A stretch of DNA of 29,396 bases from positions 1-29,396 of IMG/VR virus record IMGVR_UViG_3300017739_000072; one strand, given 5' to 3'. Below the pieces are notes generated by a model that did not search any database, was not told the DNA's origin, and was given only the letters and a program-made list of their open reading frames with translations. This document shows, piece by piece, positions 2,906 through 29,396 of this stretch (its first letter is position 1; every line of letters begins with the position of its first letter). The stretch is from a virus. A program made the position numbers and the translations under genes.

Positions 2906-3035
2906 TATACAGAGATGTTGACTTCAATTCATCTATCTGATAATGTAAGTCATTAACCTCTGCAACAATACATCTGTGCTGAAATATAAGGTATAAAGTA
3001 ATAATAGACAAGAAAATTATAAGGATAGTTTCCAT
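2532..3035 (-). CDS. Membrane-anchored coiled-coil ORF overlapping the nuclease gene, 167 aa
   Basis: The ATG at 3035 shares a base with the TAA stop of the peptidase gene (TAATG), which argues for coupled translation. Residues 1-18 (METILIIFLSIITLYLIF) form a membrane helix, followed by a coiled coil to about residue 52. From residue 44 on, the frame lies inside the VRR-NUC gene, shifted by one base, for 374 bases without a stop. That part is very basic and shows no family. The N-terminal third is probably real. Whether the overlapped C-terminal part is functional or fortuitous is open. A spanin-like topology is possible but the position is far from the lysis genes. Confidence 0.5.
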   Translation of the reverse strand: METILIIFLSIITLYLIFQHRCIVAEVNDLHYQIDELKSTSLYNAERIRKLEIEGHKSKVNRRKHTDKYSRILKATISKSVVYCNNGWSVSKTLLTKVESKAYRIFEGGIRPSYIRAKRWLLWFVYRIETRQKVLSYCRTKAIYIKGFGQGVLRYLCKRFQRVQRTD

Positions 3036-4087
3036 TAGTCGTAAGATTGTATCATATCCCTACTTACAAGGCAGTCACATCCATTACAATACCCATAGTC
3101 CTCTCCAATGTCGTTAGAGCCATAGACCTCATCTAAACAATACTCACAGCTACCTATGATTTGTAAATCACCTATGTCTTCTTCCTTGTCTTTTTTTTTA
3201 ACACCAAAGGATTCGTTCCAAGCATCTACATCATCTAACTCATCATACCAATAGCTTGGCTCGTAGTTGAAGTCATAGTCCCAATTATATTTGCTTTTCT
3301 TATTCTTGAATGATATGTTTTTTCTTTTGGCTTTGTGTTGATACAGATTGCAACCAAGAACATCAATTAGATTTGATATGAGGTCAAAGCAGTTGATAGC
3401 ATCTGCAACATCTACAACCTCTTTGTCTGTGTGTGGCGCATAGTAACCACTAGACATATTAGCAACACATACCTCTAAGCCATTGAGCTTGAGCTGATAC
3501 ACATCTGTCAATGCACCTGATGTTTCTTTATAGCCGTGTGTACGAAGTGTCTTGGATATAGCAAGAGAGAAGTCCACGCTGAATAGTTGTACGCCATAGA
3601 TGTCTCTTACAAAGTCACGATTACCTCTACGGTCTGATTGAAAGCAGTAGCCAACATCTTTGAAGAAAGACATATCTGCAGCAGAACTACCAATGCAACC
3701 AACTTCTTCGCTGTGAAAGAAAGCACACTTGACAACATCTTTGTCAAGAAGCATCTGCAAACCAATCCATACACCAACCTTGTCGTCACCACCGATACCG
3801 ACCTGCTGCTCTACATCATTGCTGAAAGCAAATAATACGCCATCTCTGTTGTAGATGCCGAAGTCTTGATACATATCGTGTACCGTATCTGTGTGTGCAA
3901 CGATACAAGGATAGTATTCTGCCTGTCCTTTGGTTACATATACATTTCTGTTTTTTACTTTTACAACTGCATCAGGAACATACTTAGAAACAAACTGCTT
4001 GATGTAAGCAATCATCTTGTCTTCTTTGCCTGATGTAGTCTGAATTGAAAGGGTGTCCTTGAGTAAGGACAAATAAGTGTCTGTCAT
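3035..4087 (-). CDS. M20/M42-like metallopeptidase with C-terminal zinc ribbon, 350 aa
   Basis: The order of metal ligands is that of di-zinc aminopeptidases of the M20/M28/M42 clan: HTDTVH (H65, D67), GGDDKVG (bridging D101/D102), HSEEVG (catalytic E127 and ligand E128), QSDRRG (D152) and APHTDKE (H219). All appear intact, so an active exopeptidase is expected. After about residue 255 comes a charged, Tyr- and Asp-rich linker, then C314xxC317 and C334xxC337, a zinc-ribbon tail not typical of the peptidase family. It is the first gene after the promoter at 4117-4148. A peptidase in a phage early operon is unusual. The substrate is unknown. Confidence 0.85.
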   Translation of the reverse strand: MTDTYLSLLKDTLSIQTTSGKEDKMIAYIKQFVSKYVPDAVVKVKNRNVYVTKGQAEYYPCIVAHTDTVHDMYQDFGIYNRDGVLFAFSNDVEQQVGIGGDDKVGVWIGLQMLLDKDVVKCAFFHSEEVGCIGSSAADMSFFKDVGYCFQSDRRGNRDFVRDIYGVQLFSVDFSLAISKTLRTHGYKETSGALTDVYQLKLNGLEVCVANMSSGYYAPHTDKEVVDVADAINCFDLISNLIDVLGCNLYQHKAKRKNISFKNKKSKYNWDYDFNYEPSYWYDELDDVDAWNESFGVKKKDKEEDIGDLQIIGSCEYCLDEVYGSNDIGEDYGYCNGCDCLVSRDMIQSYD

Positions 4088-9936: not shown

Positions 9937-10153
9937 TTTTACAATTTTTTATTGTTGCTAATTCTTTTTCTAATTCTACTATTCTGTCTTCACACTCGTT
10001 GATTATCTTAATTTTTTTTTCTAGTCTTTTTTCTAAAACAATTATATCTTCATCAAGTTGTGCTATTTGACTGTAAGCAATACCCATAGTAAATATTATA
10101 CCTATTATCCATATTATATTACCTACTGACAATGTCAAATCTTTTTGTATCAT
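9929..10153 (-). CDS. Membrane-anchored coiled-coil protein, possible i-spanin or holin partner, 74 aa
   Basis: A membrane helix at about residues 11-29 (IIWIIGIIFTMGIAYSQI) is followed by a long coiled coil (31-68, heptads of Leu and Ile, ending in ELEKELATIKNCKND). An N-terminal anchor with a periplasmic coiled coil is the layout of inner-membrane spanins such as Rz. Its ATG overlaps the TGA of the preceding basic protein (ATGA). No sequence family is recognised, so the spanin label is from topology and context. Confidence 0.6.
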   Translation of the reverse strand: MIQKDLTLSVGNIIWIIGIIFTMGIAYSQIAQLDEDIIVLEKRLEKKIKIINECEDRIVELEKELATIKNCKND

Positions 10154-10275
10154 CTGCCCTGCCCTCTGTATTTCTTTCTATATCCTTTTTGTCCTTGAGA
10201 TGAGTTCTTTGAATGAACACCCTTACGCTTGACTTTAGGTTTTGAAAGATAATTATTTACTACCTTTCTTGCCAT
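10150..10275 (-). CDS. Small very basic phage protein, 41 aa
   Basis: ATG 10275 opens 41 codons ending in TGA (10150-10152), which overlaps the next start as ATGA. The product (MARKVVNNYLSKPKVKRKGV then HSKNSSQGQKGYRKKYRGQG) is almost entirely Lys, Arg, Gly, Asn and Ser. Short proteins with KVKRKGVHxK and KYRGQG endings recur in phages of marine bacteria, without known function. It overlaps the end of the preceding 57-aa gene by 23 bases. Confidence 0.7.
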   Translation of the reverse strand: MARKVVNNYLSKPKVKRKGVHSKNSSQGQKGYRKKYRGQGR

Positions 10276-10426
10276 TCTTGTAATCTATAAATCTTTGTGT
10301 AGTATATATGATGGATATACAAAGTAATATAATCTGCAATACCTGCTCAACCTCTGTAAGAGATATAAAAAGAGTTACACTATTCAATCCTAAAACATCT
10401 GCATTTTGAGCAAGTAAAGTTTTCAT
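10253..10426 (-). CDS. Small membrane protein, holin-like, 57 aa
   Basis: ATG 10426 opens 57 codons ending in TAA (10253-10255), only 3 bases after the stop of the structural gene upstream. A hydrophobic segment at about residues 26-43 (EVEQVLQIILLCISIIYTTQ) is followed by a basic tail (RFIDYKNGKKGSK). One membrane helix at the head of the lysis cassette suggests a holin, antiholin or pinholin-like role. No family is recognised. Confidence 0.6.
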   Translation of the reverse strand: MKTLLAQNADVLGLNSVTLFISLTEVEQVLQIILLCISIIYTTQRFIDYKNGKKGSK

Positions 10427-10429
10427 ATC

Positions 10430-11056
10430 TTAATAATCAAAAGTTAATTCTAAAGTTCCATTCCACCAAATAGATTTAGTACCTGCTGTTTGTTTCCTTA
10501 ACACCTGTATCAAAACATCACCTTCAGAAAATGTCAATGTTCCTGTTAATCCCATTTCTACCTTTGTTACAAACTTATTACCACTTGCACTATTTGTTAA
10601 ATTTAATGTTTCACCTAGCTTTGTAGGATTTACATTAGCCCCTGTTCCTGATGTTACAGAAACTTTATATAATTCTAAGTCCCAATCTGCACTAGCACTA
10701 CCACCGTGCATACAAACCCATTTAGTAACTGTACCTGCGTGACAACAAACAAACTCTGAGTGCATATGTGCCCACTTCATACCAAGATTCAAGCTATTAT
10801 TTGTTGCATCTAAAGGGTCAACCTCAACATTAAGATTGTGATAATCTGCAGAAAACTGCTTTCCATAATAAGTACCTGCACTACCACTACCATTATGATA
10901 TCCACCTGTAGATATATAGTGTCTAGTATTGTTGTTTGACCAAACTAATGTGCCACTAGAGTTTTTTGTTAGATATGTATTATTTGCAGCATTAGCAAAA
11001 CCTTTTGGGTTGTGCAACTGACTATCATCTAAACTACTATGTAAATTACTTGCCAT
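10430..11056 (-). CDS. Phage structural protein, possible receptor-binding or fibre tip, 208 aa
   Basis: The start (HSSLDDSQLHNPKGFANAAN, then NTYLTKNSSGTLVWS) is a phrase I recognise from virion proteins of Bacteroidota and marine phages. The rest is Gly/Ser/Thr-rich and beta-rich (MKWAHMHSEFVCCHAGTVTK, then SIWWNGTLELTFDY), like a trimeric adhesin or head-decoration fold. It ends the structural block, directly before the lysis cassette and after two other beta-rich proteins. A receptor-binding role is plausible but unproven. Confidence 0.6.
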   Translation of the reverse strand: MASNLHSSLDDSQLHNPKGFANAANNTYLTKNSSGTLVWSNNNTRHYISTGGYHNGSGSAGTYYGKQFSADYHNLNVEVDPLDATNNSLNLGMKWAHMHSEFVCCHAGTVTKWVCMHGGSASADWDLELYKVSVTSGTGANVNPTKLGETLNLTNSASGNKFVTKVEMGLTGTLTFSEGDVLIQVLRKQTAGTKSIWWNGTLELTFDY

Positions 11057-11057
11057 A

Positions 11058-11522
11058 TTATACTGAAGCTACTAAAATTTCTACATCTACATCATTACCT
11101 GCAGGATTTACCTGAATACTTGCTATATCAGCCATTGTGCCAAAAGAAGGGCTTGTATCTGCTTCTGCTAACATAAGGTCGTCAGGAGCTCCTAAAATGT
11201 GTGATTCACCTGCATTTAGTCTTACCTGATATAATGTTGCAGCACCAACGATAGCTAGTTCTACAGAGTTAGCATCATCTAGATTTGTAACTCTTATGTA
11301 TTTTGCATCTTCTGTATCTATAGCATTATCTGAAGCAAAAGCATTACCACTAAATGTTGCAATAGTTGTTGTTTGATTATTAACACATTTTACTATTCTT
11401 TTGTAAGCCTCATTTATTCCTGTTATTTCAAGTTGCTTTGTGCCACCAAATTGAGTACCACCAAGAGTTATTGATTCTTGTATAGTAACTGTTAATGTAG
11501 CTGATGTTATTGTTGAAGCCAT
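11058..11522 (-). CDS. Beta-rich structural protein, 154 aa
   Basis: The composition is low in Lys and rich in Thr, Ala and Val with regular strands (TSATLTVTIQESITLGGTQF; SIQVNPAGNDVDVEILVASV), typical of virion decoration or fibre proteins. It is linked to the DUF5824 gene by a TAATG overlap and to the next gene by a 1-base gap. I recognise no named family. Confidence 0.6.
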   Translation of the reverse strand: MASTITSATLTVTIQESITLGGTQFGGTKQLEITGINEAYKRIVKCVNNQTTTIATFSGNAFASDNAIDTEDAKYIRVTNLDDANSVELAIVGAATLYQVRLNAGESHILGAPDDLMLAEADTSPSFGTMADIASIQVNPAGNDVDVEILVASV

Positions 11523-17565: not shown

Positions 17566-20500
17566 TTAAAACGAAGCTTGGCTTTCTAAAGACGAAACTC
17601 TGTTCTGTGTTGAGGTAACATCACTCTCCACCATTACAACCTTTTGTTTTAAATTACCACCTGAAACCATCTGTTGTATGTTTGCTAGTTCTCCACCCAT
17701 AGCAAATTTCTCACCTGATGATATCAATCCACCATCTGCAAACTTTACACCATTACCGTTGTAAGAGTTTATAGCCGATAGTATAGGTCTAAATCTAGAG
17801 GTTGACCTTTTGTTTATTATAGCCTCACCACCTTCTGCTTCGTGTATTCTGCCACCTACTGCAAACTTAACACCACCACTAGCGTGTGAACGACCTCTAA
17901 ACATACCACCCTTTGTTAGACCACCCTTAGCAAATCTAACTTCTTCACCCACTTCATCTACATTACCACCACCACCAAGTCCAAATAGATTTAAAGATTT
18001 TGATAGTAATGCAACAACAGCAGCGATAGCAGCAATATTAAATGGTGGTGGAATGGATGTACCTGCGTTAGCAGCAGATTCTCCTGCTTTTGCAAATGCA
18101 GACTTGATTGTAGCAATTATACCACCCTCTTTTGTTTTTATATTTAATTGCTCTGCTAAAGTAGCTATGGAAGTTGCAACAGAAGCAGCTTGTTGTAGTT
18201 TTGTTCCTATCTGAACAAGCTTGTTGTTTTCTCCCATAATACCACCTAGTTCAATCATAGAGCCACCCAAATCATTTACATCTGATATTCTTTGTGCTAT
18301 TATTTCTTTTGATAATTCTGCATCAGTTAGCTCTAGTTGTCTTTGCTCAGATAAAAGCTGTTTCATCATTTCAAAATCACCTACAAATATATCTTTCTTT
18401 GCATCAATAAAATTTTTCTCCAACTCAAGTAGCTTTGCCTTATGCTCTACCTCTGTTATAAGGTTGTCAGCTAATTCCATAGCTAAATTATGCTTGTTTG
18501 TGTCAAAAGATTCTTGTGCCATTTGAAGCTTCAAACTTCTATTTTCATTAAGCAAAGCAAGTTCTTGTTTTTGTATTTTTAAATCCTCTTTAAGACCGTT
18601 TTCTCCCATCTTGATATTAAGGTCTTTCATAGTTTCAAGATGCTTTATTTCTTCTTGTATCTGAAGTATTTTTCTGTCACTTTCAAACTTGTATGACTTA
18701 TTACCTATATCAAGTAGTGCCTTAGAGTGTCTTTGAGCTTCTTCTTCTATTTTAGCAGTAATAGCCTTTATTTTCTCATCTTCGCCTGTGCCACCACTTC
18801 CTGTTGCAAACAAATCTCCGATAGAAAGACTTGTAGATTCTCCTCTTTTTAAAATTAAATCCATTATTTTTTGCTGCTCTTTTTCAAAGTAGCCATCTTC
18901 TAATGTATCTAAAAATTGTTGAAGTGTTAATCCTGACTGCTCTAATAAAGCATCTAACATATCAGCATCTGCATAAAGCTCTTGTTCTGTTCCTGAGCCA
19001 AACATTGACATCATAATATCATAAGCAGTACCACCAACATCTTGTGTTAAGAATTGCATAAAAGAACTCATTTCCTCAAGTTGCTTTTTCGATTCTGCTA
19101 TCTTTTTAGGGTCTAATGTAAAATTCTCTCCTAAAGTTTCTTGTATCATATCAGACTGAACAGTTATACTTATAAGCTCTTTGTTGAGGTCGCCAAACGC
19201 TTCTACTAGCATTTTATTTGTCATAGCATCAATAAGACCACCACTACCTGATATAGCTTCTGTTATTTTGTCTATATTGTCTTTTTCATCTATAAGCTCT
19301 AGGTTATGAGTGTTTAAAAGCTTATTGAGAGATGCTATTTCAGACTTTTCTTTTTTTCGTAGTCCGTCAAGTATTTTTCTTGTTGAAGCATTATCTTTCA
19401 ATAATTTTCCTTCTTTATCTGTAAGCTCATTTATTCTTTCTCTAGTTCTAGCTAAAGATTTAAGATTGTTTTCAGCTTCAGCTATACCTTCATTGCTATC
19501 TTTAGTTGCTTTATTGAATCTTGTAGTTAAGCTTTCGGCTTCTTTTAAACCACCTGCATACTTAACCATTTGTGTAATAGCAGTACCTACAAGAACAATA
19601 AAAGCACCTATACCTGTTTTCATTATAGCGACTGTAAAAGCATTTGCAGATGCAGTAAGCAAAGTCATAGCTGTTGTTCCACTAGCTGCTGCCTTAGTTT
19701 TGAGTGCTAAAAATTTAGTATAAGCAATAGTAGCTATAGAAGCAGCTTTTACACCTAAAGTATATAAACCAACTGCTATAGCTAAAGCTTTAATTGTTTT
19801 AGCTATTTTACCAATTCTCTTAATATTTTTCTCACTTGCTAGAGTATTAAATCCTTTAGCAAAAGAATCTACTACTTTTTGCATCCTTTTGCCCAAACCA
19901 TCCATCAATGCTATTCTAAAACCATCAACAGCCGACTTGAATCGTAGGAAAGCACCCTGTAAACTATCACCAACAATCGCAGCCATAGCTTCTGCAGCTC
20001 CTTCTGAATTTCTAAGTTGCTCTGTTAGTATTTCTACGGATTCTGCACTATCTAGCATCCTACCAAAAGCAGCAGCAGTTCTTCTGTCTGTAATACCTAA
20101 AACATCAGAAAGAGCAATACCTGAATCTTTCAACTGCTTTAGTCTTGGTAAAAGTTCATCAACAGAAGAAACAGAGCCACCTAATCTTTTAGAAAGCTTT
20201 GATGTTGGGTCTGCCAATCTTAACAATACATTTCTTAAAGAAGTACCTGCAATAGAAGCCTCAATACCTGCATCCGTAAGGGAAGCCAATATTGCAGTAG
20301 TGCCTTCAATTTCAAAACCTGCCATCTTTGCAATAGGAGCAACCTTAGTCATTGATGTTTGAAACTTCTCAATATCTAAAGCAGAACTTGTAAAAGCAGA
20401 AGCCATAACATCTGCTACTCTTGTTGCTTCACTAGCATCAAGACCAAAACCTCGTATAGCAGACCCCATTACTGTTGCAGTTCTAGCTAAGTCTTCACCT

Positions 20501-21084
20501 GCTGCAGTAGCAGTCGCAAGTGTTGCTGCTTGTGCTTGTAGTATTTCTTCAGAAGTAAAACCTAATTTAGATAGATTTGTTTGAAGTTCTGCTACTTGAG
20601 TTGCAGTAAAGAATGTTGTTCTACCAAGTTCTTCTGCACTAGATTTTAGTCTTTTAAATTCTAAATCTGTTGCACCACTAATAGCTCTAACCTTAGCCAT
20701 TTGAAAGTCAAACTCCTTGAATACTACAACACTTTCTTTTATTTGGTCGCCAAGAAACTTTGTTGCTTTTTTAAGACCATCTACTGCTAATGATGCTACA
20801 CCAAAAGCAGTAGCCATCTTCATAGTAAAGCTAGTACTCTTTTTGGTTTGTGTCTGAACTTCTTTTTGAACTTTAGAGCCTTCTCTAAATTCTTTTCTTT
20901 GCTGTTTAAGTTTATCAGTAAGTTCAAGAACAGACTTCATATTTTCCTCTTGCCCCTGCTTATCATCTTTAAGAGCTTTTTTCTTCTTACGAAGGTCTTC
21001 AGCGTTCTTTTGTATTTCCTTGTTAAGACCTACAAGTTCATCAATACCTAATACTCTTACTCTATACTTTAATTCTTCAGCCAT
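17566..21084 (-). CDS. Tail tape-measure protein, 1172 aa
   Basis: This is the longest gene of the window. Residues 20-95 are a coiled coil. Residues about 120-400 hold the phage tape-measure core (FDFQMAKVRAISGATDLEFK, MGSAIRGFGLDASEATRVAD, GTTAILASLTDAGIEASIAG). Hydrophobic helices lie at about 430-510, with further coiled coils at 800-960. The C-terminus is Gly-rich with four copies of a (K/R)FAxGG motif (FAKGG, FAVGG, FADGG, FAMGG). The protein sets tail length and leads DNA ejection, and its length fits a long siphovirus-like tail. It overlaps the gp10-like gene by 8 bases. Confidence 0.9.
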   Translation of the reverse strand: MAEELKYRVRVLGIDELVGLNKEIQKNAEDLRKKKKALKDDKQGQEENMKSVLELTDKLKQQRKEFREGSKVQKEVQTQTKKSTSFTMKMATAFGVASLAVDGLKKATKFLGDQIKESVVVFKEFDFQMAKVRAISGATDLEFKRLKSSAEELGRTTFFTATQVAELQTNLSKLGFTSEEILQAQAATLATATAAGEDLARTATVMGSAIRGFGLDASEATRVADVMASAFTSSALDIEKFQTSMTKVAPIAKMAGFEIEGTTAILASLTDAGIEASIAGTSLRNVLLRLADPTSKLSKRLGGSVSSVDELLPRLKQLKDSGIALSDVLGITDRRTAAAFGRMLDSAESVEILTEQLRNSEGAAEAMAAIVGDSLQGAFLRFKSAVDGFRIALMDGLGKRMQKVVDSFAKGFNTLASEKNIKRIGKIAKTIKALAIAVGLYTLGVKAASIATIAYTKFLALKTKAAASGTTAMTLLTASANAFTVAIMKTGIGAFIVLVGTAITQMVKYAGGLKEAESLTTRFNKATKDSNEGIAEAENNLKSLARTRERINELTDKEGKLLKDNASTRKILDGLRKKEKSEIASLNKLLNTHNLELIDEKDNIDKITEAISGSGGLIDAMTNKMLVEAFGDLNKELISITVQSDMIQETLGENFTLDPKKIAESKKQLEEMSSFMQFLTQDVGGTAYDIMMSMFGSGTEQELYADADMLDALLEQSGLTLQQFLDTLEDGYFEKEQQKIMDLILKRGESTSLSIGDLFATGSGGTGEDEKIKAITAKIEEEAQRHSKALLDIGNKSYKFESDRKILQIQEEIKHLETMKDLNIKMGENGLKEDLKIQKQELALLNENRSLKLQMAQESFDTNKHNLAMELADNLITEVEHKAKLLELEKNFIDAKKDIFVGDFEMMKQLLSEQRQLELTDAELSKEIIAQRISDVNDLGGSMIELGGIMGENNKLVQIGTKLQQAASVATSIATLAEQLNIKTKEGGIIATIKSAFAKAGESAANAGTSIPPPFNIAAIAAVVALLSKSLNLFGLGGGGNVDEVGEEVRFAKGGLTKGGMFRGRSHASGGVKFAVGGRIHEAEGGEAIINKRSTSRFRPILSAINSYNGNGVKFADGGLISSGEKFAMGGELANIQQMVSGGNLKQKVVMVESDVTSTQNRVSSLESQASF

Positions 21085-21586
21085 CTTGGTTTGCTTTTTT
21101 TATGGTTTTTGTAAACTGTACTTTTATATTATCTCCAATAGCCTTTTGTAATCTTTTTTTAATCTTAGCTTTTTGAGGATTTATAGCACGATTTATATAA
21201 TCTGTTCTGTGTGTTGCTCCTGTTCTAGCAAAGCTACCTTTCGTTGGAGTTCCTTCTATCTCTATTCTTCTAATAACTGCAGTTGCTATTCTTGCTTTTT
21301 CTGCTTCGTTTGCATAAGCTATGCCCTTATCATCTATCCATTGCATTATTCTGTCAAATGGTGGTGAGTGTGGTCTTGTGCCTTTGTCTATAGCACTCCA
21401 ATACTTTGCCTTTGATGTAATTCGTACTTCTGCTTCAGAGTTACTTACATTAACTTTATGCTTTGTTGTAGCAGCAAGTTTACCTGTAGCAATATGTTTT
21501 TGATTCATCAACTCATTGACAAGTGCCTTCTTGATATCTCTACCAATAATATTTAATTCGTTATTTAGTATTGTTCTTATATCCAT
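21077..21586 (-). CDS. HK97 gp10-like tail-completion protein, 169 aa
   Basis: The central AKYWSAIDKGTRPHSPPFDR and IMQWIDDKGI (residues about 59-88) are the hallmark of HK97 gp10-like proteins, which act at the neck or tail terminator. The C-terminus is basic. It overlaps the tape-measure start by 8 bases and is joined to the LamG protein by TAATG. Confidence 0.75.
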   Translation of the reverse strand: MDIRTILNNELNIIGRDIKKALVNELMNQKHIATGKLAATTKHKVNVSNSEAEVRITSKAKYWSAIDKGTRPHSPPFDRIMQWIDDKGIAYANEAEKARIATAVIRRIEIEGTPTKGSFARTGATHRTDYINRAINPQKAKIKKRLQKAIGDNIKVQFTKTIKKANQDG

Positions 21587-22533: not shown

Positions 22534-25283
22534 TATATATTCAATCCATTAACTAAATTCATAACATCTCCATCTAATACATCATCTTTACCTAAATCAA
22601 AAAACTCCATAAGCTCTACCTTTGTAGATTCTTGAAGGTGTGGCTTGTAATCAACTATTTTGTTAATTCTATAGTAAACACCATCTAAGTAAACCAATCT
22701 TCTAAAATCTAATCTTAGTATATCTTGATAGCTTAGTTTAAAATAAGAAATTCTAATCTTTGGTCTTGATTTAAGTTGCTTGAACATTCTATTGTAAAAA
22801 TGATAAAAAAGACCTCTTATTCTATGAGTTTTGTTAGGGTTTGTAGATGCAGTAAAACCATCAGCAAATTCATTACCATCGTCGTGATAATATACAACAT
22901 CATTAAAAGATAGGTTAGGGTCAACCATTATGTGTGTGTTCAATGGCACATTAAATGCTTTTGCAGAAGCATAAGCACCCATACTATACTCTAACCTAAA
23001 TCTACTGCCATTATCAATCTCTCCTAAATTGTCAAATGTTATAAAATTAGCTCTAGTAAATTTAAAAGCAGCAGCATTTGAAGGCTCAAGTTGACTTGTG
23101 TTATTATAACTAAAAACAGTTGCATTACCTGTAAGAGCACTATCATATTGAACTAATTGGCCACCTGAATATATTGGTGCAGCTAGAAGTATTCTACTTC
23201 CTATCTGAAAGTTTTTATCTGACCTATCTGCAAATCTTTCTGCCATAAGGTAGGAGTAGTCTCTATGATATATTGGTATTAAGGGAGCTCTAGCTTTAGA
23301 GTGACCAACATCAGAATCTATATATTCAGGCTCATACCAATTAAATGTTGGGCTAAAAAATTTATTTTCTATAGTATATGTTCCATCTTGAAAAACACCT
23401 GATGTGTTAATTTCTTTGTACTCACCCCAATCTATCAAGTTCCTAGAATTAAATCTTTCTAAAAACGCATCGCTACTAGCATCTTTGTATTTTACCCTTA
23501 TCTCTGATTTTAGTTCGTGTGGAAATTCTTCTACTGTATTTTTACTATAATCAATTTTATCTGACCAATCAAAAGCTTTTAATTTTGAATCATAAAAAAA
23601 GTCATATGGCTCAACAAAAACCTTTTTCTGTATGGGGTCTGTATGAAACTGAAGATTATACATCTGTGCAATTCCCATAACAAAATCAGATTGCTTTCCA
23701 TCAGGAAGAAAAAAGTGTGGATTATCTATTGGCTCTCCAACTGTCATATCTGCTTTTCCACTTATCTGCAAAAAACTGTCAGTTTCAAACTGAAATGTAA
23801 CACTATCCCCATCAGAATTTGAAGGGTAAAGGGGCGTTACAGATAAAGCTATTAAATATTTATTACCCACACCACTTACAGATATAGGACTACTAGGAGA
23901 CCAAGTTCTTACAATGTCTTGAGGTGCATCTGCAGTATAGCTTTGCTGTTGATACCACTTTAGTTTAAAGTTTGCGTGTTCTGAGCCTGAGCCATTATGT
24001 ACGAAATTAGCAGTCTGATATAAACCATTTGCATTATCATCATCATCAGTAACTTCCCAAAGCTCTACTTTTGCTCTAAAAGATAAGTGATAGTCAGTTC
24101 CACCTGTGCTACTATCCCTAACAAACCTTGCTTTTATGTTAAAATCAATTTCGTGGTCACCTGCTTCATTTATACAAACCATAGTTCCACTATAAGAGTT
24201 TGTTATGTTTGAATTATTGGAGCTTGTACCCATCTGCACATTACCTGTGCTTTGTGATGATGGCTCATCGTAATCATCTATAAGCTCATTACCACCAAAA
24301 AGATATCTTGCCTTTGCTCCTGAAGCATTGCCACTAGGTGCATAACTAAAATTACCTGTACTGTCATTTACAGTTCCATCACCAATCATAAAAGATGGTG
24401 TAGTAGATGAACTACCATTATCAAAATATGCGTTCAAAGAAGTTGTTTGTGGTGTAGGAATACTTGTCAAAGATATTTTTCCAAACTTATTATTTACCTG
24501 CTCTGCTCTTTTTTCAAATTCAAAAGGCATTATCAAGCTTTGGAAGTAAGCACTATTACAAAAAGTACTTTCAACTGTATATCCCTGAGCTTCAAATATC
24601 TTATCCCAAATATTTTTTATATAAAAAGCAGGAACAAAATCACCAAAAGTAACTTGATTTCTATCACTTAAACCTTCGCCTACGGACATCAAAGGCCATA
24701 GTATTCTATCAAAGTTGCTTGAGAAATGATGGAAGTCATTACCTATATGATTTAAATCTGTATTACTAGCATTTGTATTGTCACTAGGACTAGATGAGTT
24801 TATATGAAAGCAGTTGTCATAAACATATCCTTGCTCTGCAACATCTGATATTGAGCTAAATCTAAGGTCTTTAAGCTCTAGGTTTTTTATTTCAGAAGCC
24901 CAATCCATATTATCTCCTACAAACTCACAACTATAACCCAATGGATTGTCAGACCTTGTTACTTTAGTAACCCTTAACTTACCTGATATTATTGGTACAT
25001 TATCAGCATATATTACTGCATCTATCTTACCAAACACATTTGTGCTTGTATCGTCATATCCTTGATAAAAAACATTTTTCAGTATTCTATTATTATTATT
25101 AGTTGCAGGTATATCGAATGTTTTAGAAAAACTTCCTGACCTAGAGTTTATGTCTCTTATGTCAAAGCTTTGTATTGTCAAAGACAAAGGAAAGTCTTCG
25201 CTAGATGTTACATCCAACACGCCTATAACCTCTTTAGAGCTTGAAGCGTTAAATCTTCTTAATTCTATTGTAATTTCAACCAT
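22533..25283 (-). CDS. Large tail/baseplate protein, 916 aa
   Basis: The N-terminal domain (SLTIQSFDIRDINSRSGSFS, KTFDIPATNNNNRIL, at residues about 34-68) is a phrase I recognise from tail proteins of Bacteroidota phages. The middle is Ser/Asn-rich with beta strands, and the C-terminus (YFKLSYQDILRLDFRRLVYL, DGVYYRINKIVDYKPHLQES) reads like a baseplate-hub closing domain. Its size and place beside another giant tail gene suggest a distal-tail or tail-tip protein. The exact position in the virion is inferred. TAATG overlaps join it to both neighbours. Confidence 0.65.
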   Translation of the reverse strand: MVEITIELRRFNASSSKEVIGVLDVTSSEDFPLSLTIQSFDIRDINSRSGSFSKTFDIPATNNNNRILKNVFYQGYDDTSTNVFGKIDAVIYADNVPIISGKLRVTKVTRSDNPLGYSCEFVGDNMDWASEIKNLELKDLRFSSISDVAEQGYVYDNCFHINSSSPSDNTNASNTDLNHIGNDFHHFSSNFDRILWPLMSVGEGLSDRNQVTFGDFVPAFYIKNIWDKIFEAQGYTVESTFCNSAYFQSLIMPFEFEKRAEQVNNKFGKISLTSIPTPQTTSLNAYFDNGSSSTTPSFMIGDGTVNDSTGNFSYAPSGNASGAKARYLFGGNELIDDYDEPSSQSTGNVQMGTSSNNSNITNSYSGTMVCINEAGDHEIDFNIKARFVRDSSTGGTDYHLSFRAKVELWEVTDDDDNANGLYQTANFVHNGSGSEHANFKLKWYQQQSYTADAPQDIVRTWSPSSPISVSGVGNKYLIALSVTPLYPSNSDGDSVTFQFETDSFLQISGKADMTVGEPIDNPHFFLPDGKQSDFVMGIAQMYNLQFHTDPIQKKVFVEPYDFFYDSKLKAFDWSDKIDYSKNTVEEFPHELKSEIRVKYKDASSDAFLERFNSRNLIDWGEYKEINTSGVFQDGTYTIENKFFSPTFNWYEPEYIDSDVGHSKARAPLIPIYHRDYSYLMAERFADRSDKNFQIGSRILLAAPIYSGGQLVQYDSALTGNATVFSYNNTSQLEPSNAAAFKFTRANFITFDNLGEIDNGSRFRLEYSMGAYASAKAFNVPLNTHIMVDPNLSFNDVVYYHDDGNEFADGFTASTNPNKTHRIRGLFYHFYNRMFKQLKSRPKIRISYFKLSYQDILRLDFRRLVYLDGVYYRINKIVDYKPHLQESTKVELMEFFDLGKDDVLDGDVMNLVNGLNI

Positions 25284-27640
25284 TATGTAATTATTGCTCT
25301 TTTCTTTCTGCTTTCAACATAATCTACAGTTACTGTTGTAGATTGCTCACTATCATAGCTTGTCAAGTTACCATCTTTTAGTAGAACAGGAACATAGTAG
25401 TTTCTATTCATAGATGAAAACTTTTGACTTTGACTAGGGTCATCAGTAGAATATTCTGTAACCTTTATGTAATCAACAAAAGTCCTACCTGCTGTGGCAT
25501 CGTGATTTAATATAAACATAGGTGCAAAAAAACGCACATCTTTTTGAGCATAAGCGTGATGAATAGGTATATTTCTTTGACCACCATAACTACCACTATC
25601 TTTATAAACACCACTAATATATCCTCTTTGCACTACAAATCTATCATTTGAAGCAGTTGTAACAGCATCAAGTGTTATATAATATTGTGAGGAAAAGCTA
25701 TTAGCTCCTGTTTGATTTACAAAAGTTGTTTTATCTTTTGCAAAACCTGTAAGACCACAATATATTAGGTCACTAGTTCCTTCAGTACTTTTATACCTTA
25801 TCTCTACTTCGTATAATTTATTTTTATCATACTTGAATAAATTTTTACTGTGAGCCCAAACTCGGTCATTACCTGCATTATTACCCTTTCTATAAACTTG
25901 TGTTCCTGTTAAATGTCCTTCATCTGTAAAAAATGCAGCATCTGTATTGAAGTCACCTGCATCAGCAGTCCAATTATTTGATATTTCTGCAACAGAAGAA
26001 TAGCTACTAAAGTCTTCTTTGAATATCTCTTTTGCTCTCCAACCTCTTTCTACCCATACATTAGAGCTCATCATCATATCTTCCACCATCTGCCTTTCAT
26101 CAAAAGTTATGGGTCTTGTTGTTGCACTTCCGTTACCATAAGCATCTACTGTATGTTTTCTTATAGATGGATATTGGTCGTCTGTAAGCCCTGCTATTCT
26201 AGGTATTAAAGCACCACCATTAGCAGTAGCAGTTGTTTGTTGTATGTGACTTCCTTTAAAAAGAGTTGTATTACTATCATTACTTGATATTTGACCTCTA
26301 AATTTAGGATATACTGTCTGTTGATATGTAGATGAGCTTGTTTGCAAACCTCTACTCATAGCACCATCAAAAGTGTAACTATCTATACCACCCAATCTGC
26401 ATTGCCAATGAAATCTAGTGCTTTCATTATAGTTTCTTCTTTTGTGGTCTATAGTATATCTTATTGTTTGACCAATCTGTTCGTGGGGGCTAGAGTTATT
26501 ACGAGTTGTTACTTCATAATAAGCTATATTAGAAAAGTCAGATACAGGTTGATTATTTCTAAATTTACTTGGAGCTGTAAAGCATAACTCCTTAATATTT
26601 CTAGTTCCTACACCTATTTGTATAACTGCATATGAAGGATTTTGATTTCCACCATCACCATAAGAAAACAAACCGTTATTACCTGTATTTGTGCCATCAC
26701 CATCTGCAGTAGCATTTATATTCAAAGCATAGTAACCTTGACCTGATGTGCCTTCTCCATTATCAATTAAATTTCCATTAAAATCATAAAAATGAACAAG
26801 AGCATACACGCCATTCGTTCCATTCTTTGCTGCAAAAGTTAAATATTCACATTCATCAACACCAATTATTCTATTTTGTGGTTTTACGGATAGATACTTC
26901 ATTCTACCATAAAGATTTTCATTATCATTAGAATCGTGTAAGTATATCTTATTTATTACTGAATGTTGTAATTCATTCTCATAAGTTCCATCTACCTCAG
27001 CATAAGATTGTCCGTGATATCCAAATATTTCTTCATTATATGATAAAGCACTATTGATAACTCTTGGATAGCAATAACCTTTTAAATCAGGTCTGACACC
27101 TGTTCCGTTTGCTAAAACTAGCTTTCCTGTAGTGTCTATATACTCAGGAGTATATGCTATTTGATAATAGGTGAATAGGTTATATGCTATTTGTCCTAAG
27201 GTTATATCTCTTAAAACATTGGGGTTTTCAGTATCTTGAGAGCAAGGTCTTAGATTATAACTTAAATAGTTTCTCATTAAAGGGGCACAATCTAAAGTAA
27301 AGTATCTGTAAGTAGCACCTGTACTAGCAGGAGTGTTTTGTGAATTTGGAGTGCTATCAATAGACCATCCGTGAACAAATGGAGTATATGGAACGTGCAC
27401 AGCAAATGTTTCATCAGGTAGTGCAGTATTATCATAAGAACTACTATTATTATTATTTAGCCATTGGTCTGTTGTTTCATTGAATGGAGTAAAATGAAAT
27501 CTACAACTAACAAAATCTTCTACATTACCTGTTAATCCATCTGTATCTCCACCATTAACTCTTATAGTAAGTTTTAAGGGACTATATACGCTATGAAATT
27601 CATTATCTTTTGGAAAATCTACTTTTTGTACTATTGCCAT
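25283..27640 (-). CDS. Large tail protein with C-terminal carbohydrate-binding-like domain, 785 aa
   Basis: The protein begins with a tail-like domain (MAIVQKVDFPKDNEFHSVYS). It has beta-rich, Asn/Tyr-rich repeats through its middle. From about residue 545 a jelly-roll region starts (IFKEDFSSYSSVAEISNNWT, then RVWAHSKNLFKYDKNKLYEV) and closes near residue 755 with TFVDYIKVTEYS, the usual edge strand of CBM-like domains. No catalytic motif is seen. It is joined to the 916-aa protein by TAATG, so the two are co-translated. Confidence 0.6.
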   Translation of the reverse strand: MAIVQKVDFPKDNEFHSVYSPLKLTIRVNGGDTDGLTGNVEDFVSCRFHFTPFNETTDQWLNNNNSSSYDNTALPDETFAVHVPYTPFVHGWSIDSTPNSQNTPASTGATYRYFTLDCAPLMRNYLSYNLRPCSQDTENPNVLRDITLGQIAYNLFTYYQIAYTPEYIDTTGKLVLANGTGVRPDLKGYCYPRVINSALSYNEEIFGYHGQSYAEVDGTYENELQHSVINKIYLHDSNDNENLYGRMKYLSVKPQNRIIGVDECEYLTFAAKNGTNGVYALVHFYDFNGNLIDNGEGTSGQGYYALNINATADGDGTNTGNNGLFSYGDGGNQNPSYAVIQIGVGTRNIKELCFTAPSKFRNNQPVSDFSNIAYYEVTTRNNSSPHEQIGQTIRYTIDHKRRNYNESTRFHWQCRLGGIDSYTFDGAMSRGLQTSSSTYQQTVYPKFRGQISSNDSNTTLFKGSHIQQTTATANGGALIPRIAGLTDDQYPSIRKHTVDAYGNGSATTRPITFDERQMVEDMMMSSNVWVERGWRAKEIFKEDFSSYSSVAEISNNWTADAGDFNTDAAFFTDEGHLTGTQVYRKGNNAGNDRVWAHSKNLFKYDKNKLYEVEIRYKSTEGTSDLIYCGLTGFAKDKTTFVNQTGANSFSSQYYITLDAVTTASNDRFVVQRGYISGVYKDSGSYGGQRNIPIHHAYAQKDVRFFAPMFILNHDATAGRTFVDYIKVTEYSTDDPSQSQKFSSMNRNYYVPVLLKDGNLTSYDSEQSTTVTVDYVESRKKRAIIT

Positions 27641-27642
27641 AA

Positions 27643-28890
27643 TTAAGATATATTGTATTTATGATTTAAGTAATTCATTATTGATGTAGCTTGACTGTCC
27701 GTTACTGCATATTGAAATATCATAACCTCTTGCACATTAAGTAAACCAAAATTTGTTAAATCAGTACCCATTAACATAGCATCTTGACTAGAATAATCTA
27801 CAGGATTTAAATAATCACTATTAGTCACACTTGTTAAGGTTGCACCATTTAAAAAATATGTTAATGTTTGACCACTAACTTTATGACCTCTGATAGCTAC
27901 CTTTGTGCTTCCTGAAGCAACATCTGATGACAAAATTAGGGCATCTGCACCTGAAGCAACAACATCAATAACTTGACTTTTAAACTGTTTTTCACCACTA
28001 AAATCTTTTATAGTTATATCCATTGTAGCTGCATTAGGAGTTCCAAAGCCCAAACTTAAAATAGGAGCATCTGTTTCATTAGAATCTGTAGTTTTTGCAA
28101 CATAGAATATAGTGTGGTCGCCCTTCAAGCTTCTAGTATTTGCTGGGTTTCCTAAAGTATTTTCATCACATATAAGATTATCATCAACACCATCAAAGCT
28201 TAAAAAAGGATATCTGTTGTTTACATTTACAGAATCTGACATCTCATATTTGTATTCAGGCTGCTTTGTAGATGTTGATTGTGAAAAGTGATTGTTAAAG
28301 ACACTTTGGTCTTTCCATTGACTAACAACCTCTTTACCACCAAAGTATTTTGTTTTTACACCAATATCACTTCTGAGCCAAAGTTGTGGGCTAAGGTCTC
28401 TGATTGATTGGTCATCAAAAGCAGCAAAAGCGTGTGAGAAGCAATCTACAGTAAAGTTCATTCTAACTTGAACAACTCTATCGTTTTGTTGATTTGTTTC
28501 TCTTTCTATAGTTATTGGAACAGGAACAAGTGTCACCTGTTTGTTTGGATAACTGTCAAGAAAGCTTTGCAACCAAAAATGTGCTTCTGATTCCAAAAGT
28601 GTATATATCACATCAAGATTTGCATTTGTGTCATTAGCACCTGTGTTGCTATCACTTGTTCTATATGGTTTAGCAAAGATAACCTCAAACTCATACTCCT
28701 CTTTCAAATGTGCGTTTATTGGGTCTTTTTCCGTAGCAGGAAGCGTTGAGGTTGGTGGCATAACTAAAAGCAAAGGATAGTCAATGTTATGCAACTCATT
28801 GATATCATCTTCATAACCAAAAACAAACTGCCCACTAGACCATTTGCTTTCCATTCTATCTCTTATGTCTCTTAATCTGTTAAATGCCAT
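27643..28890 (-). CDS. Tail-terminator-like domain fused to a LamG domain, 415 aa
   Basis: Residues 1-155 (MESKWSSGQFVFGYEDDINE, PLLLVMPPTS, YEFEVIFAKPYRTSD, VQVRMNFTVDCFSHAF) look like a tail-terminator or neck domain. Residues about 166-415 are a LamG/concanavalin-like domain with LSPQLWLRSDIG, WKDQSVFNNHFSQSTSTKQP, YPFLSFDGVDDNLIC and the closing EVMIFQYAVTDSQATSIMNY plus LNHKYNIS. That opening and closing is characteristic of adhesin-type LamG modules. A carbohydrate-binding module fused to a structural neck or tail domain suggests surface display. TAATG overlap with the upstream frame. Confidence 0.75.
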   Translation of the reverse strand: MAFNRLRDIRDRMESKWSSGQFVFGYEDDINELHNIDYPLLLVMPPTSTLPATEKDPINAHLKEEYEFEVIFAKPYRTSDSNTGANDTNANLDVIYTLLESEAHFWLQSFLDSYPNKQVTLVPVPITIERETNQQNDRVVQVRMNFTVDCFSHAFAAFDDQSIRDLSPQLWLRSDIGVKTKYFGGKEVVSQWKDQSVFNNHFSQSTSTKQPEYKYEMSDSVNVNNRYPFLSFDGVDDNLICDENTLGNPANTRSLKGDHTIFYVAKTTDSNETDAPILSLGFGTPNAATMDITIKDFSGEKQFKSQVIDVVASGADALILSSDVASGSTKVAIRGHKVSGQTLTYFLNGATLTSVTNSDYLNPVDYSSQDAMLMGTDLTNFGLLNVQEVMIFQYAVTDSQATSIMNYLNHKYNIS

Positions 28891-29198
28891 TATTTAATAT
28901 TTTTTTGACTTTCTTCTTTTACAGCTATTTCAAAATCAGACTTGGATGTTTTCCAAGCTATGTATGTTAAAACCTTATATAGTTTTTCGTCTTTAACGCT
29001 TTGTATGGCATCTTTACCGTCTTTTGTAAACAAACCATCCATAGCAACATCATAAAGGCTGTTAAGCCACCCATATGGCTTCATAATCCTACTAGCCTTT
29101 ACGACTGCAACAGACTTTGAGTTTCCTGCTCTGAAAACATTCGGATAGCGTTCAGACACATTGTTGTTCGTTTGTTCAAAAAAAAACTGAACTCCCAA
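28890..29198 (-). CDS. Downstream frame of tail-chaperone-like gene, probably expressed by -1 frameshift
   Basis: This frame has no ATG at its head. Its first possible start is a TTG at 29198 and its first ATG comes 33 codons later, while the -1 frame is open from 29219. It overlaps the upstream frame across a run of nine T (29178-29186). After the slip the product continues FEQTNNNVSERYPNVFRAGN and includes YGWLNSLYDVAMDGLFTKDG and LYKVLTYIAWKTSKSD. I recall similar segments as the C-terminal half of single-frame proteins in related phages. It is therefore best read as the extension of the 29099-29396 gene, by programmed frameshift or through an indel. Confidence 0.65.
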   Translation of the reverse strand: MGVQFFFEQTNNNVSERYPNVFRAGNSKSVAVVKASRIMKPYGWLNSLYDVAMDGLFTKDGKDAIQSVKDEKLYKVLTYIAWKTSKSDFEIAVKEESQKNIK

Positions 29199-29396
29199 AC
29201 GATATCCATTGTAAGTTGTCTAAATTTAGCGACTTTATCGTCTATATTATCTAAATCTACTTCCTCATCAACTGCTTTGCACATTATAGCCATTTGTTCA
29301 GGCAAAATGTCAAACCTTCCGTTTTTCAAATACTCAACTCCCATCTCTAGCTGATTTGCTTCAATGTATTCTCCAAATGTTCCTTCGCTAAAGAAG
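29099..29396 (-). CDS. Tail-assembly-chaperone-like protein, upstream frame, partial
   Basis: The frame is open to the right edge (FSEGTFGEYIEANQLEMGVE at the visible start), so its true start is outside the window and the ATG at 29344 is internal. The visible product has FGEYIEANQLE, ILPEQMAIMCKAVDEEVDLD and KFRQLTMDIVWEFSFFL, then terminates at 29099 after the T9 run. The layout resembles phage tail-assembly chaperones (gpG/gpGT type), in which a -1 frameshift gives a longer product. The family call is tentative. Confidence 0.6.
   Translation of the reverse strand, partial: FFSEGTFGEYIEANQLEMGVEYLKNGRFDILPEQMAIMCKAVDEEVDLDNIDDKVAKFRQLTMDIVWEFSFFLNKRTTMCLNAIRMFSEQETQSLLQS
29178..29186 (-). 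other. T9 slippery run, candidate -1 programmed frameshift site
   Basis: In the upstream frame the run reads AGT TTT TTT TTG AAC. A one-base backward slip gives TTT TTT TTT GAA, which is the frame of the 28890-29198 ORF. P- and A-site codons re-pair perfectly. A homopolymer indel would give the same appearance. Confidence 0.6.

Follow-up and report, generated by a model that had tools for sequence, protein, structure and literature searches.

A conserved nine-T run as a probable -1 recoding site in a putative tail-chaperone gene of a Bacteroidota phage

In phage lambda, the gpG and gpGT pair follows the gene for the major tail protein and precedes that for the tape-measure protein, and a ribosomal slip at G GGA AAG gives rise to a short product and to one that is extended in the -1 frame. 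Long runs of A or T stand where two product lengths part in several cellular genes, among them Thermus dnaX (A9), Shigella mxiE and Citrobacter tssM1 (A11) as these have been described, and for Citrobacter tssM1 and Yersinia tssM3 the cited part of PMC4256274 describes one mechanism that lengthens one product and shortens the other. Long-tailed phages widely conserve the recoding of their tail chaperones, and the part of PMC5009743 cited here takes it to be ribosomal. The locus that we describe resembles the lambda pair in following a major tail protein, in preceding a tape measure and in its predicted short and -1 extended products, and it differs in its T9 or T10 homopolymer, in the several tail genes that come before the tape measure and in having no sequence-family match. 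Lambda's slip is ribosomal and the three cellular genes have been studied at the bench, whereas ours is a phage tail gene known from sequence alone, from which its probable slipping machine is likewise read. A further comparison is offered by the phrog_8914 family (in Bacteroides phage B124-14, Flavobacterium phage FPSV-S2 and Croceibacter phage P2559Y, for example), which PHROGs names a virion structural protein and several records annotate as a tail assembly chaperone, and whose genes adjoin the tape-measure gene wherever that gene is annotated; like our locus these genes carry a long mid-gene run (A9-A11), but unlike it they form a single open frame, such that a slip would shorten the product.

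The window analysed here comes from a marine phage and is the whole of virus record IMGVR_UViG_3300017739_000072 (positions 1 to 29,396; 29,396 bases), and the features on which the argument draws are the following.

29099 to 29396, minus strand: 3' part of the upstream frame (G), 98 codons and a TAA, the gene start lying beyond the window's right edge
29196 to 29198, minus strand: TTG codon in the -1 frame, a possible yet unlikely independent start for T
29187 to 29196, minus strand: GGGAGTTCAG, immediately 5' of the run and almost invariant in nucleotides within the T9 clade
29178 to 29186, minus strand: the T9 slip run, read in frame 0 as AGT TTT TTT TTG
29099 to 29177, minus strand: overlap in both frames, with 25 codons of the G tail past the slip codon plus the stop, together with T
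28890 to 29177, minus strand: downstream part (T) in the -1 frame, 95 codons and a TAA
27643 to 28890, minus strand: next gene, 415 aa, with a virion structural protein family match (phrog_10356), its ATG overlapping the T stop
25283 to 27640, minus strand: tail protein, 785 aa (phrog_5911, tail)
21077 to 21586, minus strand: tail completion or neck-like protein, 169 aa (phrog_5)
17566 to 21084, minus strand: tape-measure protein (PHROG match, E 5e-61)

Frame 0 around the run reads TGG GAG TTC AGT TTT TTT TTG AAC, and the -1 reading after a slip continues TTT GAA CAA. The layout is as the original prediction had it: the upstream frame enters from the right edge and stops at a TAA (29099-29101), while the -1 frame, open from 29219, reaches its stop at 28890 and overlaps G across the T9, with no ATG at its head but a TTG at 29198. 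The distance of about 8 kb to the tape measure also holds up, at 7.8 kb, with PHROG matches marking tail or structural genes in between. The start of G was read from relatives as the first ATG, which lies 187-206 codons 5' of the site in loci of sufficient length. Normal decoding would yield G, which is 217 aa in near-identical relatives, and a programmed slip on the T9 would fuse the T of the -1 frame to G, for a total of about 287 aa. Across 28 diverse loci, lengths range over 213-239 aa for G and 285-313 aa for the fusion, the exceptions being a truncated locus (L064) and one that reads on into the next gene (L045). In the latter, the T frame at 10001-11173 has no stop before the next gene and gives a joined reading of 574 aa, through either a small indel or a true fusion. 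Elsewhere in the window, an A9 run in the sense strand of gene 3035-4087 (at 3191-3199) may likewise be slip-prone.

Relatives were collected by scanning viral contigs, at first with the -1 part as query (63 loci) and later with T and G alignments (the best 80 kept out of 206 and 178, respectively), for a set of 221 sequences made up of 220 loci, one of which (L001) is the window's own copy, and the window itself. G was matched in 220 of these 221 sequences and T in addition in 217, and an uninterrupted T9 or T10 is present in all 217 that have both parts (window and L001 counted). T lies in the -1 frame in 215 of them; the exceptions, L049 and its duplicate L114, retain the T9 and owe a second frame change to a base missing downstream of the run. 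In those scans, some patterns overlap the run or its border. Two extra scans used only the patterns TFGDYIE and EQMAILC, which lie off the run (the best 80 kept out of 225 and 214, respectively), and among their 159 loci 121 have T9, 36 have T10 and 2 end before the site. The run is thus T9 or T10 in 157/157 site-reaching loci, 156 of which place T in the -1 frame while the remaining one gives no T match, and none of the loci from these run-independent scans has fewer than nine or more than ten T's, or has G and T sharing one frame. Because the scans share many contigs and each is represented by its best 80 loci, these locus counts are neither independent nor complete.

This constancy bears directly on the alternative that a homopolymer error in sequencing or assembly has broken one continuous gene in two. 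Long T runs are prone to such errors and single-frame homologs do exist, but the identical run and frame relation recur across relatives, including the isolates P12024S and P12024L, and the two exceptional loci keep their T9 with the change downstream of it. Error would also have to accommodate a frame-0 stop that falls 22-39 codons from the slip codon in 38/38 sequences, and an overlap with a two-frame substitution pattern (below). With run length and frame constant in the examined relatives, isolates included, we rejected homopolymer error as a most improbable explanation.

The two-frame pattern emerged from pairwise comparison of 28 T9 sequences, pairs more than 35% different being excluded. 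Before the run, 72% of substitutions hit third positions of frame 0; past the overlap, 64% hit third positions of frame -1; and within the overlap the pattern across codon positions is flat. The +1 frame, for its part, meets a stop directly after the run in 38/38 sequences and 75/75 contexts, so that slippage by RNA polymerase would predict a third, short protein truncated at the run.

Codon choice at the site is equally restricted. Removal of three truncated loci left 97 distinct contexts, the window's among them (81 T9, 16 T10), in 37 clusters, with NNT TTT TTT TTR as the register of the window family. The two Phe codons of the run are never TTC in these 97 contexts, while the Phe codon before the preceding residue is TTC in 92 of them, and across the 37 clusters none of the run's 74 Phe codons is TTC, where the codon use of the same genes would predict about 14.5. 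The codon that precedes the run's Phe codons ends in T in 75/75 contexts, and encodes Ser, Ala, Val, Ile, Leu or Gly. Restriction extends upstream in the T9 clade, where the codons 5' of the run are GAG in 78/81 and TTC in 81/81 contexts (the same genes overall use GAG at 32% and TTC at 20%), and where a second count for GGGAGTTC 5' of the run found GAG in 55/57 and TTC in 56/57 contexts; GGGAGTTCAG as a whole uses codons that are minority choices elsewhere in the same genes. GAG occurs 5' of the run in 0/28 T10 contexts, and GGGAGTTC looks like an element that may aid a nine-base run and be dispensable with ten.

Upstream codons also bear on a second alternative, in which T is a separate gene that starts at an NTG codon 12 nt 5' of the run. 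An NTG is found there in 37/37 cluster representatives (26 TTG, 6 GTG, 5 ATG), but it arises from conserved frame-0 Val/Ile/Ala-Trp codons, and C-ending Val codons number 6/327 in twelve window genes. A start of its own would furthermore leave the fixed run unexplained, and single-frame homologs have both parts joined. As the Val/Ile/Ala-Trp codons account for the NTG and the single-frame homologs fuse G and T, we rejected an independent start, which we hold to be very unlikely.

Homologous families came to light when a Foldseek search against predicted viral proteins picked out Nonlabens phage P12024S and Flavobacterium phage 6H. The layout of the window recurs at gp38 of P12024S, where about 81 codons of T follow a T9 in the -1 frame; in that genome (L221, 23136-23830) gp38 corresponds to G and gp39 to a shortened T of one recoded gene with a T9 junction, and P12024L is arranged likewise. 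Among IMG/VR relatives of this family (63 loci, 17 contexts) the run is T9 in 62 and T10 in 1, and although one of the search patterns spans FFYH, TTC was permitted there yet is absent. The register of this family is NTT TTT TTT TAY, which amounts to a shift of one T from the 3' to the 5' side of the Phe codons. Because the two homologous families differ in codon register while the total is still nine, it is the length of the run that appears to be the invariant.

Single-frame counterparts of 259-301 aa are encoded by the Duneviridae phages 23T, FPSV-F7, laban6-1 and Ingeline_1, by Polaribacter phage Leef_1 and by a Microcystis phage, so that a comparison with single-frame homologs, which the original prediction had proposed as a check, came out in its favour. 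In hhalign, the joined window family (36 sequences) aligned with five single-frame proteins over 227 columns spanning the slip site at a probability of 98%, and with the joined P12024S family over 234 columns at 99%, reversed controls for both comparisons giving 0.1%. Because these profiles align across the slip site, the -1 product is taken as the counterpart of a protein that is elsewhere encoded in one frame. A run of at least nine A or T at the junction is kept in recoded homologs and not in single-frame ones, where the junction run is T6 at most and exceeds six in 0/6 genes; the notion that every such chaperone carries a long run was rejected on this count, since evidently not every such protein relies on one. 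Local sequence differences, possibly a sequencing artefact, shorten the gene in Flavobacterium phage 6H (L222, 10352-10927) relative to 23T and FPSV-F7, in which it is continuous and 293 aa long. Other searches added little: nothing relevant among 50,697 phage records came up when the site, T and G were queried by BLAST and tblastn, two pattern scans of cellular genomes found no relatives, and a PDB sequence search with both alignments had best rows at E 0.6 or worse.

The conserved run, the two-frame substitutions and the single-frame homologs together support the programmed -1 join at the T9, into one fused protein, that was proposed originally, and to this reading of the locus as one recoded gene we would assign a probability of about 0.95. 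Conservation and architecture fit recoding near the 3' end of G that would yield a longer fused product.

Turning to what the products might do, the gene order in one near-identical relative (L004) is terminase large subunit, a major tail protein match (phrog_341, E 2e-5), a gene of 145 aa and then G/T, which places G between the major tail protein seen in L004 and the tape measure that lies 7.8 kb downstream in the window. A structural model of G (pLDDT 77) has the HK97 tail chaperone 2ob9 as the top of 22 rows (Z 4.0, rmsd 3.8, 73 residues, all within model residues 1-100; next Z 3.4 and 3.2), a likeness in fold that comes with 12% identity and with a Z so low that it can reflect a common arrangement; the other rows were taken to be common helical arrangements and set aside. 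Plain Foldseek of the same model gave no PDB match at E ≤ 0.001 and did not have 2ob9 among its ten matches, and the T-domain model is poor (pLDDT 58). PHROGs and Pfam returned no family for the window group, whether the query was G, T or the joined GT, and for a distant relative (L052) they returned weak rows (E 0.081 in PHROGs; E 0.0034 and 0.062, below the cut-off, in Pfam), with no chaperones among them. The described resemblance to tail chaperones therefore rests on gene order and on a weak fold match and not on Pfam or PHROGs, and on that balance the role is likely; G/GT is in our judgement a good candidate for the tail chaperone. If lambda is a guide, G would be expected to bind the tape measure and GT, the scarcer product, to recruit tail-tube subunits.

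As for the host, the L004 terminase has its best matches in phages of Croceibacter, Chryseobacterium and Cellulophaga and in one phage of unstated host, and a Shine-Dalgarno (SD) core stands upstream of 0/30 window genes against a background of 10%. Ribosomes of Bacteroidia fail at SD recognition according to the cited part of PMC9976891. Because the terminase matches and the SD-less genes both point to Bacteroidota, the carrier is probably a siphophage of that phylum, and probably a flavobacterial one.

The original prediction had spoken of a frameshift in the ribosomal sense, of which the -1 recoding stands while transcriptional slippage explains the run at least equally well. In the transcriptional case, RNA polymerase would insert one extra U on the T9, and a minority of mRNAs would then yield GT by normal translation. 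In the ribosomal case, the ribosome would itself slip by -1 at T TTT TTT (or at T TTT TTG), in the manner of lambda gpG/gpGT. Either machine would leave nearly the same residues at the junction, FFF-E, or FFL-E where the ribosome used T TTT TTG. The codon data speak partly for the ribosome, as a heptamer T TTT TTT, read NNT TTT TTT, is in phase in every context, the T that precedes the Phe codons is invariant despite five to six amino acids at that position, and most T9-clade sites have a GGGAG 5 nt 5' of the run; moreover, the tail-chaperone shifts described in the cited parts of PMC5009743 and PMC3711429 are all ribosomal. Against this, the host apparently makes no use of SD, GGGAG is missing from the T10 clade, and six or seven T's would suffice for a ribosome, yet the minimum is nine in two families.

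Downstream stem-loops lend the ribosomal case no help either. Stem-loops are in no excess over shuffles in eight windows around the run (38 sequences); in the three windows from 4 nt past the run the mean z is -0.18, -0.53 and -0.23, and per window 0 to 3 of the 38 sequences have a downstream stem-loop at z < -2. Rfam gave a single sub-threshold match, located inside the next gene. A hairpin that would loop out the run (GTTC..GAAC in the window) was rejected as well, being disrupted in relatives with GACA past the run and having energies no better than shuffles. Because tail-chaperone shifting can run at low efficiency (6 and 7% in the cited part of PMC3711429), such missing stimulators count for little as evidence for the polymerase.

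More discriminating is how runs are distributed in other genes, for which 320 genes of 38 loci were compared with synonymous shuffles, the T9 site left out. In these genes, which are related to each other, and against shuffles that do not preserve codon-pair bias, runs of A9 or longer number 7 versus 31.7 expected, runs of T9 or longer 0 versus 4.6 and T7 runs 24 versus 46.7, with A9 or longer and T7 both depleted in all three codon phases. T7 in heptamer phase is scarce as well (20 versus 31.1), which favours the ribosome in that it leaves room for a ribosomal cost, but in-phase heptamers from runs of six are tolerated (T 62 versus 63.4, A 151 versus 127.8), which does not. Nine A or T is, in the cited parts of PMC1088944 and PMC5009743, the length at which selection against slippage appears in a large proportion of bacterial genomes.

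The polymerase reading has difficulties of its own beyond the in-phase T TTT TTT and the ribosomal precedents. The last T's of the run encode conserved residues, Leu in frame 0 and Phe in frame -1, so that part of the T9 could be a protein constraint, and the six single-frame genes have at most T6 at the junction. In the open-access literature, searched by title and abstract, we found no tail chaperone made through transcriptional slippage and no frameshift reported in these phages. We favour the polymerase because of the T9 minimum, the avoidance of long runs in any phase, the site's lack of an evident stem-loop or usable SD stimulator and the A9-A11 runs of the phrog_8914 family. On sequence grounds RNA polymerase is slightly likelier than the ribosome to be the slipping machine, with a little better than an even chance of being so, and ribosomal frameshifting stays a serious contender at somewhat under even odds. 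The chaperone role, the ratio of products and the polymerase as slipping machine are all points that we infer.

In the phrog_8914 family, 77 records were matched and 14 named phage genes examined; 13/14 of the latter, and 6 IMG/VR loci, carry A9, A10 or A11 at the same lysines within one open frame. The fourteenth gene of this type, that of Croceibacter P2559S, has an A8, with its second part in the +1 frame, and such a short run counts against polymerase slippage, as does the fact that profile comparison detected no homology between this family and the window family. The lysine runs (L223 11040-11049, and mid-gene in L303-L314) are A9-A11 in phages whose hosts are Bacteroides, Parabacteroides, Alistipes, Flavobacterium, Elizabethkingia and Croceibacter. 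Lys codons in the 13 A-run genes number 240 AAA to 80 AAG, the run counted. A +1 slip at the A run would end the protein at once in 9/13, the mean being 5.5 codons against a background of 12.2, while -1 stops past the run are no closer than background (9.5 versus 10.9 codons); because only the +1 stops are closer and the sequences are related, these stop positions lend slight support. A second part in the +1 frame at an A run is seen in Cellulophaga phi12:1 (L225, 30496-30525; A9) and in P2559S (L224, 14742-14760), each of them one lineage, of which phi12:1 gp56 has its own ATG and P2559S could be a sequence error.

The best reading of the locus is that of a putative G/GT-type tail-chaperone recoding site in a Bacteroidota phage. 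This reading bears on annotation too, in that the T part of P12024S is annotated merely as a shorter separate gene and G and T of the window fall outside PHROGs and Pfam. More broadly, we put forward, tentatively and at just short of an even chance, that many Bacteroidota phage tail chaperones set the ratio of short to long product by polymerase slippage on runs of about 9-11 A or T and not by ribosomal frameshifting, with an offset that would vary between -1 (the two homologous families), in frame (phrog_8914) and +1 (phi12:1 and P2559S) while the long run stays constant. Polymerase slippage may have been taken up in these phages perhaps because the ribosomes of their hosts ignore SD stimulators. 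The strict T9 or T10 in phages of hosts that do not use SD provides a clean system for testing if a slipping polymerase can stand in for a slipping ribosome in making the same pair of proteins.
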